Shown here: positions 3,753 to 13,109 of the stretch, one piece after another
How the letters are laid out: the number at the start of each line of letters is the position of its first letter
Numbering within the stretch: position 1 is the stretch's first letter
IMG/VR virus record: IMGVR_UViG_3300014720_000185
Location: 1-24,061 of that record
From: a virus
Reading direction: 5' to 3' (one strand)
Length of the DNA stretch: 24,061 bases
Made by a program: the position numbers and the translations under genes
The notes under the pieces: generated by a model
Told to the model about the DNA's origin: nothing
The model's database searches: none
What the model saw: the letters and a program-made list of their open reading frames with translations, nothing else

Positions 3753-4892
3753 TTAGATATCATCGAAGAACAAAGGATCTGAGCCAGGATTTTTTTGGGC
3801 TCGGGAGCCCTTCTGAGCAGACGCCTTTTGATTCTTCTCGATCTTTGCTGAAAGTTTTTGTTCCGGTGACTTCCCGTAGAGTTGTGCGATGGCCTCTTCG
3901 ATATCTGCGCTTGAAGCGTCAGTTTGAATTGCGAAGGTAGCCAGGCTTTCTACAGCAGCCGTATCTTTTACAAGATCAGGATGAATCGCTGCTAGTTTAG
4001 CTTCGATCGTACTGATCTTTTGTGTGTTAGCGTAATAAGCACCCAGAAACTCAGGTGTAATAGCATCAGCATCATGCCCAAGTTCAGTAAGCTCATCCCA
4101 CGCCTTCACCAGTGCAGCTTTATCCATGCCATGCGTTTGCATGACTTGGTTAACCTGGCCTTCGAGTGCTGCCCTCGATTTGGCCTGTTCTTTCGCTTGA
4201 ACTTCAGCTTCCTTGCGCCCCCTGAACCGAGATACCTCTTGTTCAAGCTCCCGAATCTTCCGTTCTTCGGGCGATAGAGATGACATCTCTTCAAGTTGTT
4301 TCTGTAGGCTTCCTACAGTCTCTTGATAGATCTGGTCCCCATCCACTCCCATTGCCTCGCTAATGTACTCAAGGAACCCGCGCAGATCCTTTTTGTTCAC
4401 AAGCAAGTCTTGAGAGCGTTCCAGAGCCTTACTCATTAAGTCCCGCTGCTTATCAAAACCGTCTTTTTCGGTCTTGTAAGTTTTGTAGAGCTTATCGAGA
4501 TGGCTCTGTTGAGAGTAGCGATTGATCGCCTCCTGTAGCGGGATCTCTATGACTTTACCGTCAACCTTGACGGGGACAAGAGCATCCGGGCTAACATCGA
4601 GCGTTGTCTCGCCATTCTTCAACTTTAATAGTTTGGCAGGAGTAAGAGGTTTTTCAATACCCTCTTCCTTTTTATCCTTAGAATCTTTGGCCTCAACCTT
4701 TTGGTCTTTCTCTTCTTTAGGCTCTTTCTTGGGCTCTTTAGCCTCTTTGGGCTTAGGCTCTGCCTTGGGCTTGGCTGTAACAGCGTCTAGGTCATCCCAG
4801 GATGCAGGAGCGTCCCCTCCTGACATGACAATAGGCTCGGGAGCCTGTGGAGCTTCTGTTGCTTGGATCTGTGGTGCGGCATTCTCTGACAT
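3753..4892 (-). CDS. Head scaffolding protein
   Basis: The 379-residue protein lies between portal and major capsid, the usual place for the scaffold that guides procapsid assembly and is then removed. It begins with an acidic, Pro-rich segment, then a long Lys/Glu/Pro tract (about residues 38-80). A small globular part follows (VDGKVIEIPLQEAINRY), then extended charged helices from about residue 120 to 260 that look coiled-coil. The basic C-terminus ends in DPLFFDDI. A GGAGA ribosome site precedes the ATG at 4892. No protease motif is seen. The assignment rests on order, charge and helicity rather than on a recognised domain. Confidence 0.87.
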   Translation of the reverse strand: MSENAAPQIQATEAPQAPEPIVMSGGDAPASWDDLDAVTAKPKAEPKPKEAKEPKKEPKEEKDQKVEAKDSKDKKEEGIEKPLTPAKLLKLKNGETTLDVSPDALVPVKVDGKVIEIPLQEAINRYSQQSHLDKLYKTYKTEKDGFDKQRDLMSKALERSQDLLVNKKDLRGFLEYISEAMGVDGDQIYQETVGSLQKQLEEMSSLSPEERKIRELEQEVSRFRGRKEAEVQAKEQAKSRAALEGQVNQVMQTHGMDKAALVKAWDELTELGHDADAITPEFLGAYYANTQKISTIEAKLAAIHPDLVKDTAAVESLATFAIQTDASSADIEEAIAQLYGKSPEQKLSAKIEKNQKASAQKGSRAQKNPGSDPLFFDDI

Positions 4893-4906
4893 TCTATCTT
4901 GTCTCC

Positions 4907-7123
4907 TTAGACTGCGCTAGTCGGCGCTACTGGTGGGATAGGACCGCCAGCAAGCTGAGTAGTGAGGCTTGGTTGAGGTTCAAGTGTTGGCAGTTGGGCT
5001 TCCCCCCCAACCATAGGGTTTACAGGCAATTCGCCTGGAAGGTTCACAGGAGGCAATGGTCCACCAGCCGGAGGCATTGGAGCCGGAGGGGGGGCCATAG
5101 GAGCTGGCTGTTCAAAGTAGAACATCGGGAACATGGGCAGAGTCTTGAGCTGTTCAGCGAAGGCAGGAGACTTCTTAGCCTGTTCAGTCATCAGGAACTC
5201 GTGCGCCATGACGTGATCTTTGAACCGCTGCTGGATAGCTTGGTCAGTCCTATACTTAAACCTGAACTCCTGCATCTGACGGGTATGGATCTTCCAGTGC
5301 AGGATATGGTTCTCGAACTCGGTAGGAGCCATAGTCTCAGGATCTTCTACCTCATACAGCTTCTCGTTCTCGGCTTCAGCCGTTCGGACTGCAACGGTAG
5401 CAGCGTCGGTGAACTTATCGCTCTGAGCAAGGTCAAGCATATCAATCACTTGCTCGCCCGTAAATTGGTCGGGAAAGCGCTCGGAAAGATCAAGAAGCGT
5501 CTGCGTCCTAGCAGCAACGGACTTAGGAAGCGCCGAGCTGTTCTGGATGCGGATATCGTAATCCTTCTCCAAGGAAGACACCTTGAAGAACTCGGTCATG
5601 TACTCGTTATTCTTACCAAGAACACGGACCATGCGCTCGTCGCTTTCGTCGTAGTAATCACCAGCGACAGCAACGGTCATGTCAGCAATTTGACGGATCA
5701 TCTCGTTCCACTTGAGAACAAGCTCGTTATACCGCTCAGACTCTTGCTCACTTAGGAATTGAAGTGCCACACCTGCTTTAATGCCAGGAGGCGGCTCACC
5801 ACGGCTAACTCCAAACACTCCTGAGATTTGTTGGAACTCTTCCTTCAGCTTGTCGCGGAAGCTGAACAGATCGCCTGGGATGCTCTGCGCAGTAGCTAGG
5901 ACTGGTGGTTGTGGTCCTTTGTATTGAACGATAGTAATATCATTTCCCAACCGATCGAGAGCAACACTGCCAGCAGGTACCATCCACTTAGGATGAGAAA
6001 CCATAACAGCGTTGCGAATAAGCATATTAGTAAGGTTATTGTAGGTGCCAGTAAGACCCTTAATCTGTTCATAGAAGCTCTGGCCGTGAAGCTCGCCAGG
6101 AAGGTCTTGATCGGTGAACCTTACGCATGGGAGCTGTGAGTGGGAGAACGGGAACTCAGTGTTCTCAAGGATCGTATCGTTTGTGAATACGATCTTACGC
6201 CCTTTGTCCATATGCGGGCTACGCTTATGCCAGAACGTGAACTTGAGGGTCTCACGACGAGTAGCGACTAGCTCCATCTTCTCATAGTCGTAAATCTGTA
6301 CGTCCTCGTCCTTAATGAAAGCAGCCTTCTCAGGGTAGAGGATACGGAGCTTATCGGTCGAGACAGGTTCAATCTGAAAGCAGTAGTCTACGTCGTCCCA
6401 CTTCTGTTTCTTTTGCAGGAGAATCTCAGACGCCATGTGGATCATATAGTCCACGTCACCGATCCGTACAGGCTTGTCGATGAAGACCTTGTTGCCTTGC
6501 GGGTCCACGACCTGTTGCCCGTTCTCATCGAGCATGGGGATCTTGCCGTCTTTGGCACCCTTCTTAGCTTCTAGGTAGGCAGGAGATAGATCACCCTTCT
6601 CCTCGTTCCATACAATGAAACAGTACACCTCGCCCATGATCTGAGCGTAGGTAGCGAGCTGGACTTGCATGACTCCTTCGAAGTCGTTCTCGTACCAGAT
6701 ATGATCGAGCAGAGCCTTCGCGCTCTTTGCGGCGAGTTTATCCTCAAGCTCGTCATTAGTCGGCAAGATAGCCACCGCTGGACGGAACTTAACTAAGCGT
6801 GATGCTCTGTTCTTGGTTAGATCGAACAAGTGGTTCGCGACCACTTTGCGCATGAACGAGCTTTTGTCAGCCCCACGGTCACGAGCGTCTACACGAGATT
6901 CTAGCTCTTGATACTGGATACCTTTGTAGAGTGCCAGGTTACGGCGCATGACCCGAATGCGATCACGAGACTCGCTTTCAAGGAAATCACGCTCACCCTT
7001 CAGCCATTCGAGGATATTCTTCTCGTTATCAGGATCATCAAGGTCTAGCGAGTAAAGCGGTTTTGAAGGTCTGACGTAGTTTCCTTCATTATTGAGATCG
7101 TCAAACGAGTAGACTTGATCCAT
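4907..7123 (-). CDS. Portal protein
   Basis: A 738-residue protein directly after the terminase region, as expected for the dodecameric portal through which DNA enters and leaves the head. The body carries portal-like features: an N-terminal helical wing (RDRIRVMRRNLALYKGIQY near residues 53-72), a central stretch with ELHGQSFYEQIKGLTGTYN, and helices near residues 430-490 that would fit the stem/crown. The last 80 or so residues are a Pro/Ala/Met-rich tail, probably flexible. The length is close to that of P22-type portals (about 725 aa). The long reading frame on the opposite strand at 4847-5755 is a shadow. Confidence 0.93.
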   Translation of the reverse strand: MDQVYSFDDLNNEGNYVRPSKPLYSLDLDDPDNEKNILEWLKGERDFLESESRDRIRVMRRNLALYKGIQYQELESRVDARDRGADKSSFMRKVVANHLFDLTKNRASRLVKFRPAVAILPTNDELEDKLAAKSAKALLDHIWYENDFEGVMQVQLATYAQIMGEVYCFIVWNEEKGDLSPAYLEAKKGAKDGKIPMLDENGQQVVDPQGNKVFIDKPVRIGDVDYMIHMASEILLQKKQKWDDVDYCFQIEPVSTDKLRILYPEKAAFIKDEDVQIYDYEKMELVATRRETLKFTFWHKRSPHMDKGRKIVFTNDTILENTEFPFSHSQLPCVRFTDQDLPGELHGQSFYEQIKGLTGTYNNLTNMLIRNAVMVSHPKWMVPAGSVALDRLGNDITIVQYKGPQPPVLATAQSIPGDLFSFRDKLKEEFQQISGVFGVSRGEPPPGIKAGVALQFLSEQESERYNELVLKWNEMIRQIADMTVAVAGDYYDESDERMVRVLGKNNEYMTEFFKVSSLEKDYDIRIQNSSALPKSVAARTQTLLDLSERFPDQFTGEQVIDMLDLAQSDKFTDAATVAVRTAEAENEKLYEVEDPETMAPTEFENHILHWKIHTRQMQEFRFKYRTDQAIQQRFKDHVMAHEFLMTEQAKKSPAFAEQLKTLPMFPMFYFEQPAPMAPPPAPMPPAGGPLPPVNLPGELPVNPMVGGEAQLPTLEPQPSLTTQLAGGPIPPVAPTSAV

Positions 7124-8729: not shown

Positions 8730-9079
8730 TCAGCCTTCTGAGTAATGAACGGATCGTTGCTCAGTACGTTTTCAATCTCTTTAGGGGAAAGCGTTTTAAC
8801 CTCTAGGTTTTGTTTCTGCTCAATCTTGTCAGACATACCCAATTCGTTTTTAGATAACCAGATCAGGATAGTGACATTGCCATTTAGGGCAAGCTCCCAC
8901 ATTTTCCTTCTCAGGCTCATTTTACCTTCGTTCCGAGCGTCTTTTATTTGTTCCGCAAAACGCCTATGCAGGGTGTCAACTGACACCCCAAGGACCGAAG
9001 ACATTTCCTCTTGATTGCAGTGAATGGCGGCTAGTTTACGAAGCAGGTTCTCGTCTACGGGTTTAAGCGGTCTGGCCAT
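8726..9079 (-). CDS. terS: Terminase small subunit
   Basis: A 117-residue DNA-binding protein that would recognise the packaging start site and hand DNA to TerL. An N-terminal helix-turn-helix-like region (KLAAIHCNQEEMSSVLGVS, about residues 15-33) is followed by THLRRF-like recognition-helix residues, a central basic helix (MSLRRKMWELAL) and a polar C-terminal tail. It overlaps the methyltransferase gene by 17 bases upstream and TerL by 4 bases downstream, so all three are likely co-translated. Assignment is from the domain pattern and direct adjacency to TerL. Confidence 0.9.
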   Translation of the reverse strand: MARPLKPVDENLLRKLAAIHCNQEEMSSVLGVSVDTLHRRFAEQIKDARNEGKMSLRRKMWELALNGNVTILIWLSKNELGMSDKIEQKQNLEVKTLSPKEIENVLSNDPFITQKAE

Positions 9080-10352
9080 GCGTCACCCCTGCCTTAATCT
9101 CATCCCACGCCACGCCGTCTTCACGGTGCGCTTTTTTGCCCGTATACTTCTGCCAGCGGTCGAGAATCACGCCGCAGTAATGCGGGTCAAACTCCATTCC
9201 ATAAGCCGATCTGTTTGATTTTTCTGCGGCTATAATGGTTGTTCCACTACCGATAAAAAGATCTAAAACTTTTTGATTTGGTTTTGTACTGTTTAAAATA
9301 GCCTCTTCCACAAGCTCGACGGGCTTCATCGTTGGGTGCAAATCATTTCTTAGAGGCTTCGGGAAATCCCAAACGCTGGTCTTTTTTTGACCATCTCCAA
9401 AAAACTCATGCGTTCCGTTTTGTTTCCAACCGTACAGCATTGGCTCGTGTTTATAGTGGTAATCGCATCGACCTAAGACGTGATTGTTTTTTACCCAAAT
9501 AAGCATGTGCTTTAACTGAAAACCGGAACGGATTATGCTCATCATCATCATCATCATCATCATCATCAAGTCCCCACCCTGCGGGCTTGCGATGTAATAG
9601 CTAGATTTTTCTGTCATTACTAAATGCGCGTTTGAAAGAAACGTAAACCAAAACTCGTTCATTTCTTCGGGCGATCGATGATCGTTCTCAATGGGCTTGG
9701 TAAGCCTATGGCCTGTCCCAAGCCCATTGAGATATTTGTTTTTATCTGTGTAAGAGACCCCGTAGGGCGGGTCTGTCCAAAGTAAATCCGCCTTTTCCCC
9801 ATCCATCAGCCGCTCAACGTCAGTGATCGCAGTCGAATCCCCACACATAAGACGATGCTTCCCAAGGATATAGACTTCACCCTTGACGACTTTAGGCTCT
9901 GGGAGTGCATCGGGCACTTCGTCCTCATCACACTGAGGCTCTATCTTTTCGATTGGCTCAATGACGAAGTCTTTAATCCCTAACAAGTCGATATCGAAGT
10001 CAGGCCCAAGGTCGAGCATATCGGAGTTAATCCCTGATAGGTCGAGCTCACTCCACGACGCAATGGCATTATCAGCGGTTAGGTCTGCGTACTCCTGCGC
10101 CTCGTCGGTGTAGTCTTGAAAGCTGACTGGTACTTCTTTGAGCTTGAGTAGCTTTGCAGCCTCGAGACGCCCGTGCCCAGAAGTAATAAAGCCCGACCGC
10201 TTGCTGACCTTAATCGGGTACCGCCATCCCTGATAATCAAGGATCTTAGCAAGCCTCTCGATCTGTTCTTTCGGGTGGCTGTTTCTGTTCTGTGGATTGG
10301 GTTTCAGATCCTTAATCGCGACTAAGCCATCATGAGCGCAGTGGACAATCAT
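9063..10352 (-). CDS. ParB-domain DNA adenine/cytosine-amino methyltransferase
   Basis: The 429-residue protein combines two modules. Residues about 10-100 form a ParB/Srx-like domain with the GHGR motif (59-62) and a downstream ADNA helix. Residues about 155-405 form an N6-A/N4-C methyltransferase with DPPY (194-197) before FIGSGT (366-371), the beta-class motif order. No endonuclease partner is seen nearby. The start overlaps the upstream stop (ATGA) and the end overlaps TerS by 17 bases, which ties methylation to packaging genes. A run of nine consecutive Met (263-271), encoded by a CAT/ATG microsatellite, sits between the two catalytic motifs. The target site is unknown; protection from host restriction or marking of the packaging site are possible roles. 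Confidence 0.92.
   Translation of the reverse strand: MIVHCAHDGLVAIKDLKPNPQNRNSHPKEQIERLAKILDYQGWRYPIKVSKRSGFITSGHGRLEAAKLLKLKEVPVSFQDYTDEAQEYADLTADNAIASWSELDLSGINSDMLDLGPDFDIDLLGIKDFVIEPIEKIEPQCDEDEVPDALPEPKVVKGEVYILGKHRLMCGDSTAITDVERLMDGEKADLLWTDPPYGVSYTDKNKYLNGLGTGHRLTKPIENDHRSPEEMNEFWFTFLSNAHLVMTEKSSYYIASPQGGDLMMMMMMMMMSIIRSGFQLKHMLIWVKNNHVLGRCDYHYKHEPMLYGWKQNGTHEFFGDGQKKTSVWDFPKPLRNDLHPTMKPVELVEEAILNSTKPNQKVLDLFIGSGTTIIAAEKSNRSAYGMEFDPHYCGVILDRWQKYTGKKAHREDGVAWDEIKAGVTHGQTA
9540..9566 (-). repeat. Trinucleotide microsatellite (CAT)9 / (ATG)9
   Basis: Nine perfect tandem CAT units on the plus strand read in frame as nine Met codons of the methyltransferase. Length changes by slippage would add or remove residues without shifting the frame. 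Confidence 0.95.
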
Positions 10353-10621
10353 TGTGCTTGCTTCCGAGCTTTTCTGTCAGCTTTACCCTCAGCCTCGATC
10401 TTCTGCTCAATCGTCTCAGCAAGGAGAATAAGGTCAGCGACGGTCCAGTCCTTGAAACGCTCGTGATAGTATCGCTGAATCTTATCGTCCACTAGGCTAT
10501 CTACCTGATCTTTGAGCCTTACGAGATTGATCTCGGAGTTAAACATTTGACTAACGTAGTCTGATGCTGCCTTAATCTCATTTAGGCAAATGTCGTGAGT
10601 CTTCTTAACAAAGTAGGTCAT
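10349..10621 (-). CDS. Unrecognised helical charged protein (90 aa), first gene of packaging operon
   Basis: The ATG at 10621 is preferred over a TTG codon at 10639. Neither has a clear Shine-Dalgarno site. The 90-residue product (MTYFVKKTHDICLN...) is predicted mostly helical: a middle part with VRLKDQVDSLVDDKIQRYY, then a basic Lys/Arg/Ala tail. Its stop overlaps the methyltransferase start in ATGA, so it heads the leftward methyltransferase-terminase run. No domain is recognised; the basic tail and context allow a DNA-binding or packaging-associated role, but that is only inference. Confidence 0.62.
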   Translation of the reverse strand: MTYFVKKTHDICLNEIKAASDYVSQMFNSEINLVRLKDQVDSLVDDKIQRYYHERFKDWTVADLILLAETIEQKIEAEGKADRKARKQAQ

Positions 10622-10639: not shown

Positions 10640-10876
10640 ATGTTAGACGACGAGCAACTAAAATACTACAAGGACCCTCAAATGCGGGGCTGGAAGTCGT
10701 TTAAAACAGCTCCTGGGAAGAACTGCTACACCGTTCGCTGTTACGCTCGCGCTGATTATGAATTGTTAAGGAACAGCGCAACCCTAAGCCGTCGTGAACT
10801 GCTCTGCTCAAGGTGTCTAAAGAATAGACAGCGAGCTTTAGGGCTAGTTGAGATAGTGCACCCTGAAAAAGAATAA
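10640..10876 (+). CDS. Small Cys-containing basic protein, unrecognised (78 aa)
   Basis: The likely start is ATG 10640; the frame also opens at 10595, but that would overlap the divergent gene. No Shine-Dalgarno site is visible. The 78-residue product starts MLDDEQLKYYKDPQM and contains a CSRCLKNRQR motif near residues 56-65 and Cys at about 29 and 34, so a small zinc-binding fold is possible. Sequence character is protein-like and basic. The stop is followed immediately by a hairpin (10874-10910). Function unknown. Confidence 0.55.
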   Translation: MLDDEQLKYYKDPQMRGWKSFKTAPGKNCYTVRCYARADYELLRNSATLSRRELLCSRCLKNRQRALGLVEIVHPEKE

Positions 10877-10910
10877 CCCCGGTCTTTACTTTGCGTATCA
10901 ACCAGGGTTA
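10874..10910 (+). repeat. Hairpin 1 of a similar pair (TAACCC/GGGTTA)
   Basis: TAACCC, then a C/A mismatch, then GGT pair with ACC and GGGTTA: nine pairs and one mismatch, loop 17 nt. It begins in the stop codon of the 78-aa gene. There is no T-tract, so a canonical intrinsic terminator is unlikely. A related hairpin lies at 10988-11013. Confidence 0.55.
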
Positions 10911-10987
10911 CTAAGAATTTGCGTACTCTTGTCCTCATTTCTGCCTCTTCTGGCAAATGTTTACAAGCGAAAAGTAGCAACAGGATT

Positions 10988-11013
10988 TAACCCTAGCTGT
11001 TAAAACAGGGTTA
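10988..11013 (+). repeat. Hairpin 2 of the pair (TAACCCT/AGGGTTA)
   Basis: A perfect 7-bp stem with a 12-nt loop. The 3' arm and flank read CAGGGTTAC(A)AAG, nearly the same as hairpin 1 (CAGGGTTACTAAG). The pair brackets a stretch of about 80 bases with no gene. It could be a protein-binding, replication or RNA-processing site; nothing decisive is seen. Confidence 0.5.
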
Positions 11014-11020
11014 CAAGGTC

Positions 11021-11400
11021 AACGCCGGGACCGATGATTGAAAGATCATCATAACCGACAGGATTAGCTTAAGTTGCCAAGCCAGAGTGAACAGATTCGG
11101 TCAGATTGACCTCTTCACTTTAAGCACCGCTCGTTAACGGTAGGACGCCAATAATTGCGGGCAGGGGAAAATGGGTGCAGCGAGCTTAGGTACTGATCCG
11201 GGAGTAGAACGAACTTGATACGAGCTGGAAACGCCTATCGTCTGGGACTAGCCATACCAGTAGACAGTGACAGGGGAATACCTGAGAGCTTGAGCAGTCG
11301 AGCTTTGAGTTAGCCCCCTGGACAGGCAGTAAGTATCGGGACGAACATAGCCTTTAATGCTTGCTAGCTATCATCCGTGGTAGGTAGGGGAATTGGCTAC
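11021..11400 (+). ncRNA. Candidate large structured RNA or structured leader
   Basis: No credible coding frame covers this stretch on either strand. Read on the plus strand it can form an orderly set of helices. These are 11033-11038 with 11045-11050; nested 11067-11072 with 11120-11125, 11086-11091 with 11114-11119 and 11099-11103 with 11107-11111; then directly adjacent 11126-11129 with 11138-11141. Further on are 11240-11245 with 11257-11265 (bulged); 11271-11276 with 11315-11320 enclosing the 7-bp hairpin 11287-11304; and 11347-11351 with 11367-11371. A possible closing helix pairs 11030-11038 with 11370-11378 (8 of 9). I could not match it to tmRNA, RNase P, group I intron, TPP or cobalamin consensus by eye. 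Strand is inferred from the gene and terminator downstream. Confidence 0.5.
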
Positions 11401-11438
11401 TATTGTCTTTGCTCGACGAAATGTTAATCTTAGGCTCG

Positions 11439-11443
11439 GAGGA
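11439..11443 (+). promoter_or_regulatory. Ribosome binding site deciding the 11451 start
   Basis: The GGAGG core of CGGAGGA lies 7 bases before ATG 11451. The same frame opens earlier at 11403 without such a site, so the shorter protein is preferred. Confidence 0.7.
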
Positions 11444-11450
11444 CTCCAAA

Positions 11451-11645
11451 ATGAAAGAATCAGGATACGGAAGCCAGGCGGCTTCAATGAAGTCAAAAGG
11501 TGGTGGCGGTAAAGACGCCGCTGCTTATTCAGAGAAAGCAGGCGCTCAAGCTGGTGCAGCTCGTAAAGGTGCAAAGCTCGACAGTGCAGGCGGTGTTGCG
11601 AAGAAAGATGAAGCGCAGTACAAAGAAGCCTGTAAGGACGAGTAG
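11451..11645 (+). CDS. Small low-complexity Ala/Gly/Lys protein (64 aa)
   Basis: The start at 11451 has a strong GGAGG site 7 bases upstream. The 64-residue product is built from Lys, Ala, Gly, Ser and Asp/Glu, with a GGGG run and recurring AGA/KGA units (for example KAGAQAGAARKGAK near residues 29-42), and ends in an acidic CKDE. No hydrophobic core or membrane segment is visible, so it is probably flexible or binds a partner such as DNA or RNA. It stands alone: about 380 bases of structured leader lie upstream and a strong terminator lies directly after it. Function unknown. Confidence 0.68.
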   Translation: MKESGYGSQAASMKSKGGGGKDAAAYSEKAGAQAGAARKGAKLDSAGGVAKKDEAQYKEACKDE

Positions 11646-11670
11646 TTCTTACTAAGCTGTGTTCTCTCTC

Positions 11671-11706
11671 AAGGGGTTAGAGGTATTTTACTTCTATCCC
11701 CTTTTT
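11671..11706 (+). terminator. Strong intrinsic terminator
   Basis: A 15-step stem (AAGGGGTTAGAGGTA with TACTTCTATCCCCTT, one T/T mismatch and one G/T pair) with a 3-nt loop ends in five T (11702-11706). It isolates the structured region and the 64-aa gene from the genes that follow. Confidence 0.88.
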
Positions 11707-11710
11707 CTCA

Positions 11711-11737
11711 TAGACAATGTATTACACTCATTATAAC
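11711..11737 (+). promoter_or_regulatory. Possible promoter for the rightward operon
   Basis: TAGACA (11711-11716) and TATAAC (11732-11737) resemble sigma-70 boxes with a short 15-base spacer, placed right after the terminator. Transcription would begin near 11744, only a few bases before ATG 11748, which would make the mRNA nearly leaderless. The spacer is shorter than ideal, so this is tentative. Confidence 0.4.
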
Positions 11738-12147: not shown

Positions 12148-12345
12148 ATGAAACTAGACGTAAACCTAAAGCAGCTAACCACGACAGAAGTAAACGATAA
12201 GACGATCTGCCTCCGTATCCCACAAGAGGACTTTGAAGACCTCAAGGCCATTAACGGCAACATCTCTCAGGTAGTCCGTGGGCTAATCGAACAGTTCCTA
12301 GAACAGTACAAACAGGAGAACCGTAAATGGACACGAAACAAGTAG
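12148..12345 (+). CDS. Ribbon-helix-helix-like small protein (65 aa)
   Basis: ATG 12148 follows GAGG at a normal distance and lies 7 bases after the previous stop. The 65-residue product has a short strand (KTICLRIP, about residues 19-26), then a helix (EDFEDLKAI), an Asn-Gly turn and a longer helix (ISQVVRGLIEQFLEQY). This order is typical of ribbon-helix-helix DNA-binding proteins such as Arc or CopG types. The end overlaps the RecT-like gene by 19 bases. It is a plausible transcription regulator of the early block; its target is unknown. Confidence 0.6.
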   Translation: MKLDVNLKQLTTTEVNDKTICLRIPQEDFEDLKAINGNISQVVRGLIEQFLEQYKQENRKWTRNK

Positions 12346-13109
12346 CACTCCCTCAACACTTTGGAGTCGATCAAATCGAGCGCATGGCCGTAGCCTTCGC
12401 TAAAAGTGGGTTGTTCGGCATTAAGACCCCTGAGCAGGGCGTCGCTTTAATGCTCATCGCTCAAGCCGAAGGAATGCACCCTGCTATTGCAGCTAGAGAT
12501 TATCACGTCATTCAAGGTCGTCCTGCACTGAAAGCAGACGCAATGCTAGCTCGCTTTCAAGCAGCGGGCGGAAAGGTAGTTTGGAATGCGTACTCCGACC
12601 AAGAAGTTACAGGAACCTTTTCTCACCCATCAGGAGGCGCTGCCACAGTCTCTTGGACGATCACTCAAGCTAAAGCGGCAGGACTCACAGGCAAAGACGT
12701 GTGGAAGCAGTATCCTAGAGCAATGCTTCGCGCTCGCGTCATCTCAGAAGGAATTCGGACGGTCTATCCTGGCGTTTCTGTCGGGGTTTATACGCCAGAA
12801 GAACTTCAAGACTTCGATGCCAAGCCAGCAGCTAAAGACGTTGAGGCCCTACCAGTACAGGAACGTGAAGTTCAAGCCACCCCTGCCCCTGCCTTAACCA
12901 AAAGTGAGGAAGACCCTCGTCCCATGCTTATGAAACGGCTGGCTAAATCCTCATGGAAGAAAGACGATCTCAAGTACTACTGTGGCTCAGTCTTCCATAT
13001 CGAAGCATCTAAAGACCTATCAATAGATCAGCTTAAAGCCTTCGTTAATGCGGTTGAGACCTCTACCTTTGAAGAGGCTATGAACAAGTATCAAGATGAA
13101 TCACTGTAA
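12327..13109 (+). CDS. RecT-like single-strand annealing protein
   Basis: The 260-residue protein carries an N-terminal segment typical of phage RecT-like proteins. This is a helix ending in AKSGLFGIKTPEQGVALML (about 23-41), then AEGMHPAIAARDYHVIQGRPALKADAMLARFQ split over about 45-75 and an AKAAGLTGK segment near 108-116. The region PRAMLRARVISEGIRTVYPG (about 126-145) also fits that family. The C-terminal 100 residues are a Pro/Ala/Glu linker and a small helical domain. Such proteins pair complementary strands in recombination-dependent replication. An AGGAG site precedes the ATG inside the upstream gene. No RecE- or Exo-type partner is visible; the VRR-NUC gene is the closest nuclease. 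Confidence 0.72.
   Translation: MDTKQVALPQHFGVDQIERMAVAFAKSGLFGIKTPEQGVALMLIAQAEGMHPAIAARDYHVIQGRPALKADAMLARFQAAGGKVVWNAYSDQEVTGTFSHPSGGAATVSWTITQAKAAGLTGKDVWKQYPRAMLRARVISEGIRTVYPGVSVGVYTPEELQDFDAKPAAKDVEALPVQEREVQATPAPALTKSEEDPRPMLMKRLAKSSWKKDDLKYYCGSVFHIEASKDLSIDQLKAFVNAVETSTFEEAMNKYQDESL

Follow-up and report, generated by a model that had tools for sequence, protein, structure and literature searches.

A covarying structured RNA, about 390 nt long, from a variable slot in uncultured phages, probably a new RNA family

The window, a linear virus record of 24,061 bp (IMG/VR record IMGVR_UViG_3300014720_000185, analysed over its whole length), carries between two small rightward genes a region for which comparative analysis shows a real structured RNA, whose secondary structure is selected as RNA on the + strand. 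It is probably a large structured phage RNA of a new family, read rightward, acting in trans independently of the 64-aa gene that follows it, and travelling as accessory cargo that may bind a host component. The proposal of a new phage noncoding RNA family had been made in an earlier note written from this DNA alone, and it is supported by four sequence variants, covariation on one strand, the lack of a conserved reading frame, and the lack of a match in Rfam. Since folding of the single sequence is modest (z -1.65, with 8 of 100 shuffles equally good), it is the comparison of homologues, as an argument from alignment, that provides the conclusive evidence for the structure.

Genomic setting and distribution

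PHROGs matches on the minus strand identified capsid, portal, large terminase, and a ParB-like/DNA methyltransferase protein, and rightward genes start at approximately 10640, among them one at 12327-13109 whose product is RecT-like by a weak Pfam match. The RNA region sits between a small rightward gene, which diverges sharply between phages (34-47% amino acid identity), and the 64-aa gene, whose product was searched against Pfam and PHROGs and matched neither (Table 1). The strong terminator seen in the earlier note was recovered as a terminator-like hairpin at 11671-11703 (-18.3 kcal/mol, z -5.1). The only tRNA in the window lies at 2030-2110, approximately 9 kb from the RNA, and neither ARAGORN nor Rfam gave a tmRNA match in the window. 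The ParB-like/methyltransferase protein (9063-10352) contains a nine-methionine tract corresponding to (CAT)9 on the + strand at 9540-9566; contig 3300013132_000422 has (CAT)7, the sole difference from the window across 12,083 aligned bases. At the place of this ParB-methyltransferase fusion, contig L008 carries a TET-associated glycosyltransferase (TAGT) gene (L008:3269-4135) adjoining a ParB-like gene that has no methyltransferase part.

Table 1. Features of the RNA region and its flanks in the window
Feature	Position	Strand	Basis or remark
78-aa gene, 5' of the RNA	10640..10876	+	same ORF has 93 aa when read from GTG at 10595
Fast-evolving hairpins 5' of the core	10874..11016	+	~10874-10910, 10928-10968, 10988-11013
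Conserved core, ~392 nt	11017..11408	+	alignment, pair counts, identity profile
H1 hairpin, 11017-11020/11029-11032	11017..11032	+	one double-sided change; paired in all variants
5' domain; the long helix H2 (11054-11077/11180-11205) closes it	11054..11205	+	inner helices H3-H7
Central domain, H8-H11	11219..11335	+	pair counts; covariance model R1
H8, 11219-11227/11327-11335, closing the central domain	11219..11335	+	pair counts
H10, 11238-11245/11257-11264; H11, 11271-11293/11298-11320	central domain	+	pair counts
3' domain, H12-H14	11339..11408	+	nearly invariant
H12, 11339-11344/11403-11408; H13, 11348-11352/11395-11399; H14, 11358-11371/11377-11390	3' domain	+	pair counts
Promoter-like TTGTCT-16-TAATCT, TG before second hexamer	11403..11430	+	all RNA-bearing phages and L003 (without RNA)
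Shine-Dalgarno GGAGG of the 64-aa gene	11438..11442	+	GGAGGACTCCA context kept with or without RNA
64-aa gene, 3' of the RNA	11451..11645	+	homologues in related phages
Terminator-like hairpin 3' of the 64-aa gene, T-rich tail	11671..11706	+	hairpin folding

Viral contigs were searched with the terminase, the 64-aa protein, a 130-aa protein, and short DNA motifs as queries. Eight contigs, including the window, carry the RNA region at the same place, and they represent four distinct variants with pairwise identities of 78-91% over the aligned region: the window, to which 3300013132_000422 is identical across the RNA region; the L008 group (3300042905_003249, 3300046003_006008, 3300042355_000998, and 3300002277_000003, the last of which ends inside the RNA); L022 (3300037042_003815); and L019 (3300032332_001133). 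A profile HMM and two covariance models, R1 for the central domain and R2 for the 5' domain, found no further members among approximately 50 related phage contigs, although absence from a contig fragment does not prove absence from the phage. R1 gave weak matches on the opposite strand at the same locus (E about 0.01), which reflect palindromic hairpins. The corresponding slot holds protein genes in the five relatives inspected (L003, L046, L052, L062, and L054). Phage and plasmid nucleotide collections searched with the region returned only short chance matches, and in bacterial genome contigs we found neither an exact 22-mer from the region nor terminase relatives. Extra contigs drawn in by scans with the motifs TAGGTAGGGGAATTGG and AATTGCGGGCAGGGG, as well as L020 and L023, drawn in by GACAGGGGAATACCTGA, were chance matches according to the profile search and were discarded. 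Two relatives have features of their own: the terminase ORF of L003 (3237-5627, + strand) contains an intein (Pfam Intein_splicing), within which a 225-aa HNH_3 endonuclease ORF (4733-5410) lies entirely on the same strand in another frame, a published parallel being an HNH hidden within a phage methylase insertion (PMC11855218), and L022 has long hexanucleotide-like repeats at 1008-1401 that encode, in overlapping frames, low-complexity tracts of Ala/Thr/Pro or Gly/Ser/Tyr.

Comparative evidence for the fold

RNAalifold on the four sequences gave z=-6.0 on the + strand against column-shuffled alignments (none of 100 as low) and z=-1.0 on the - strand, and an RNA on the minus strand is accordingly not supported. 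The consensus structure has 112 pairs, with 98.9% of cells paired in the four-variant alignment. Double-sided changes are found at 15 of these pairs against a shuffled mean of 6.8 (0 of 500 shuffles reached 15), and the covariation score is 0.246 compared with 0.164 in shuffles; when the partners were slid by 1-3 columns, pairing fell to 32-45% and 0-2 double changes were left. Because the consensus structure came from the same alignment, single-sequence folds were used as independent predictors. The minimum free energy fold of the window alone predicted 22 kept double changes in the other variants where 5.3 were expected, with 35 broken changes against 65 expected, and the L019 fold alone gave 36 kept against 6.9 and 18 broken against 51 (0 of 1000 permutations in each case). 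These controls model phylogeny incompletely and draw on only four distinct variants; all of them agree, and the view of the earlier note that the region is highly structured is upheld by compensatory changes beyond the controls on one strand.

The helix cells contain 85 G-U pairs and a single A-C, and the + strand is therefore the RNA strand. The same asymmetry, together with the conservation of the structure on the + strand only, makes it hardly credible that the region is instead a DNA element (an origin, a packaging site, or a cruciform), as might be considered for highly conserved intergenic DNA near divergent operons; moreover, it is not found in related phages, which must also replicate and package their DNA. 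The region is also shown, as judged from its reading frames, to encode no protein. Every variant has at least two stops in each frame over approximately 390 nt, in agreement with the earlier view that 11021-11400 holds no credible frame, and a conserved frame, looked for in all variants, was not found, the open stretches being short and differing between variants and frames.

The core consists of one hairpin and three domains. Four double changes each support the inner part of H2 (11068-11075/11183-11190) and H4 (11085-11095/11112-11120). The H3/H6 junction is uncertain because an alternative helix, 11124-11128/11174-11178, also covaries and is incompatible with H3 and with the outer pairs of H6. 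No double-sided change occurs in H12-H14, and since these helices are nearly invariant, the fold of the 3' domain rests mainly on energy. A self-complementary CGUUAACG at 11132-11139 is invariant in the variants, and this palindrome could mediate RNA dimers. The hairpins that precede the core form in both the window and L008, less clearly so in L019; they possibly belong to the transcript or to the exchanged module described below.

Individual helices put forward earlier fared unequally. Helix 11086-11091/11114-11119 pairs in all variants and is part of H4, and 11271-11276/11315-11320 is likewise paired in all variants and never varies. Helix 11067-11072/11120-11125 is paired in three variants, but it has one mismatch in L019 and competes with the far better inner part of H2, while hairpin 11033-11038/11045-11050 is present in two variants, altered in the third, and deleted in L019. 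A helix 11030-11038/11370-11378, supposed to close the whole RNA and to compete with the hairpin at 11033-11050, is refuted by a C-C mismatch in the window and more breaks in the other variants, and the supposed competition falls with it.

CsrB has a similar length and purine-rich loops, and each core carries 9-11 GGA motifs, as a sponge for a CsrA-type protein with many GGA motifs in its hairpins would. Such a role is nevertheless highly improbable, because the number is that expected from composition (8-9), few of the GGA motifs are conserved, and Rfam gave no CsrB or Rsm match.

Conservation, exchange, and the downstream gene

The window and L022 share 30-53% identity in the upstream gene, 67% at 10882-10933, and 96% at 10934-11052; identity stays at 76-96% from 10934 to 11452 and drops to 46% just past the start codon of the 64-aa gene. 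The RNA is thus shown by this alignment to form a sharply bounded island of conservation between diverged small genes, in only some related phages, and its better conservation than that of the adjacent small genes suggests selection on the RNA itself. In L022 (3921-4400), the 5' part of the RNA is window-like and the remainder L008-like, whereas the flanking genes are closest to L019; because RNA and flanks form such a mosaic of variants, the RNA module has been exchanged.

The earlier note had also raised a riboregulator of the 64-aa gene. As a cis-acting leader, the RNA would be a riboswitch- or ribozyme-like 5' UTR controlling this gene or the rightward operon, and its position fits: it lies directly upstream on the same strand with approximately 42 nt from the core end to the start codon, each of the seven contigs reaching beyond the RNA has the same gene family directly after it, and the interval contains no terminator or clear 3' end, the terminator coming after the 64-aa gene. 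Since RNA and gene are not separated by a terminator, read-through into the gene is expected. However, the gene does not depend on the RNA for its presence: L003, L052, and L062 have the gene with its GGAGG context and without the RNA (the GGAGGACTCCA context itself in L003 and L052, a near-identical one in L062), and L046 also has a member of the gene family without the RNA. The RNA is 76-96% conserved, far better than the adjoining gene with approximately 46-63% nucleotide identity (window-L022). In the full-length alifold consensus, the Shine-Dalgarno region is paired to a segment further upstream, but this pairing has mismatches in L019, leaving no well-supported sequestering helix, and Rfam gave no match to a cis element.

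A promoter-like sequence, moreover, intervenes before the gene. Across the four variants and L003 it takes the form TTG[TC]CT, approximately 16 bases, and an AT-rich hexamer whose last two bases are CT or TT, accompanied by a TG element; a generic promoter scan did not score 11403..11430 as a consensus promoter, and no promoter for the RNA itself was recognised. This sequence is only suggestive, but it lowers the likelihood of an obligate cis role. We regard a leader function for the 64-aa gene as unlikely, and as less likely than an independent RNA. Overall, what the earlier note said of a structured RNA without a reading frame stands, its long-range closure is refuted, and its regulator role is not supported.

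Affiliation and proposed role

Rfam, including GOLLD and ROOL, gave no match at the gathering threshold over the window and none for the homologues at E<=1, and at E<=10 the stretch 10880-11720 yielded no intron family and nothing else beyond two chance-level hits. A self-splicing or mobile ribozyme, that is, an intergenic insertion left behind by a group I or group II intron, could account for the large complex fold of comparable size, the patchy distribution, and the invariant AATAATTGCGGGCAGGGG, and AATTGCGGG at 11153 resembles the group I P element. However, AATTGCGGG pairs inside the nested helix H6, a search with it found no other full-length relatives, and the Rfam group I model is unmatched. 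The RNA contains no homing gene and splits no exons, lying between two complete small genes. We therefore rejected the group I assignment from AATTGCGGG and consider an intron origin very improbable.

Among phage-borne RNAs, GOLLD, which is encoded by phages or prophages, is large and elaborate, covaries extensively, and has no known function; it is often longer than 800 nt, occurs near tRNA islands, and is conserved in its 3' region (PMC12286853). ROOL, a large structured RNA likewise encoded by phages or prophages, has no known protein partner; the solved example measures 659 nt, and tRNAs are often nearby (PMC12286853). The present RNA resembles GOLLD in being large, elaborate, phage-encoded, and covarying, and ROOL in being a large structured phage RNA. 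Because the covariance models of both fail, the core is shorter than either, and no tRNA island is near, it belongs to neither and forms a family of its own within this broad kind of RNA. In cyanophages, the manA and wcaG motifs, which are described as apparent regulators of metabolic genes (PMC2864571), are also structured RNAs carried by phages, but here the downstream gene encodes an uncharacterised 64-aa protein and Rfam is unmatched.

In the new family that we favour, the RNA would be made within a rightward early or middle transcript, and once folded it would act in trans, independently of the 64-aa gene, as accessory cargo in a variable slot. It would most likely bind a host protein or ribonucleoprotein and thereby assist host takeover or blunt defence, the weakest step of the proposal. 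We infer trans action on a host component from the patchy distribution, the exchange of the module, and a conservation that does not follow that of the neighbouring gene. More tentatively, the RNA may be a self-sufficient folded particle, possibly homo-oligomeric, or a decoy for a host factor, and thus moron-like cargo exchanged as a unit.

Few large structured phage RNAs are known, and GOLLD and ROOL, for which a homo-oligomeric RNA cage is characteristic, are without an assigned function. The RNA described here is compact, has a fold backed by covariation, and occupies a variable slot in a group of uncultured phages; it is a tractable new case, and the alignment and two covariance models open the way to wider searches and direct structural tests.
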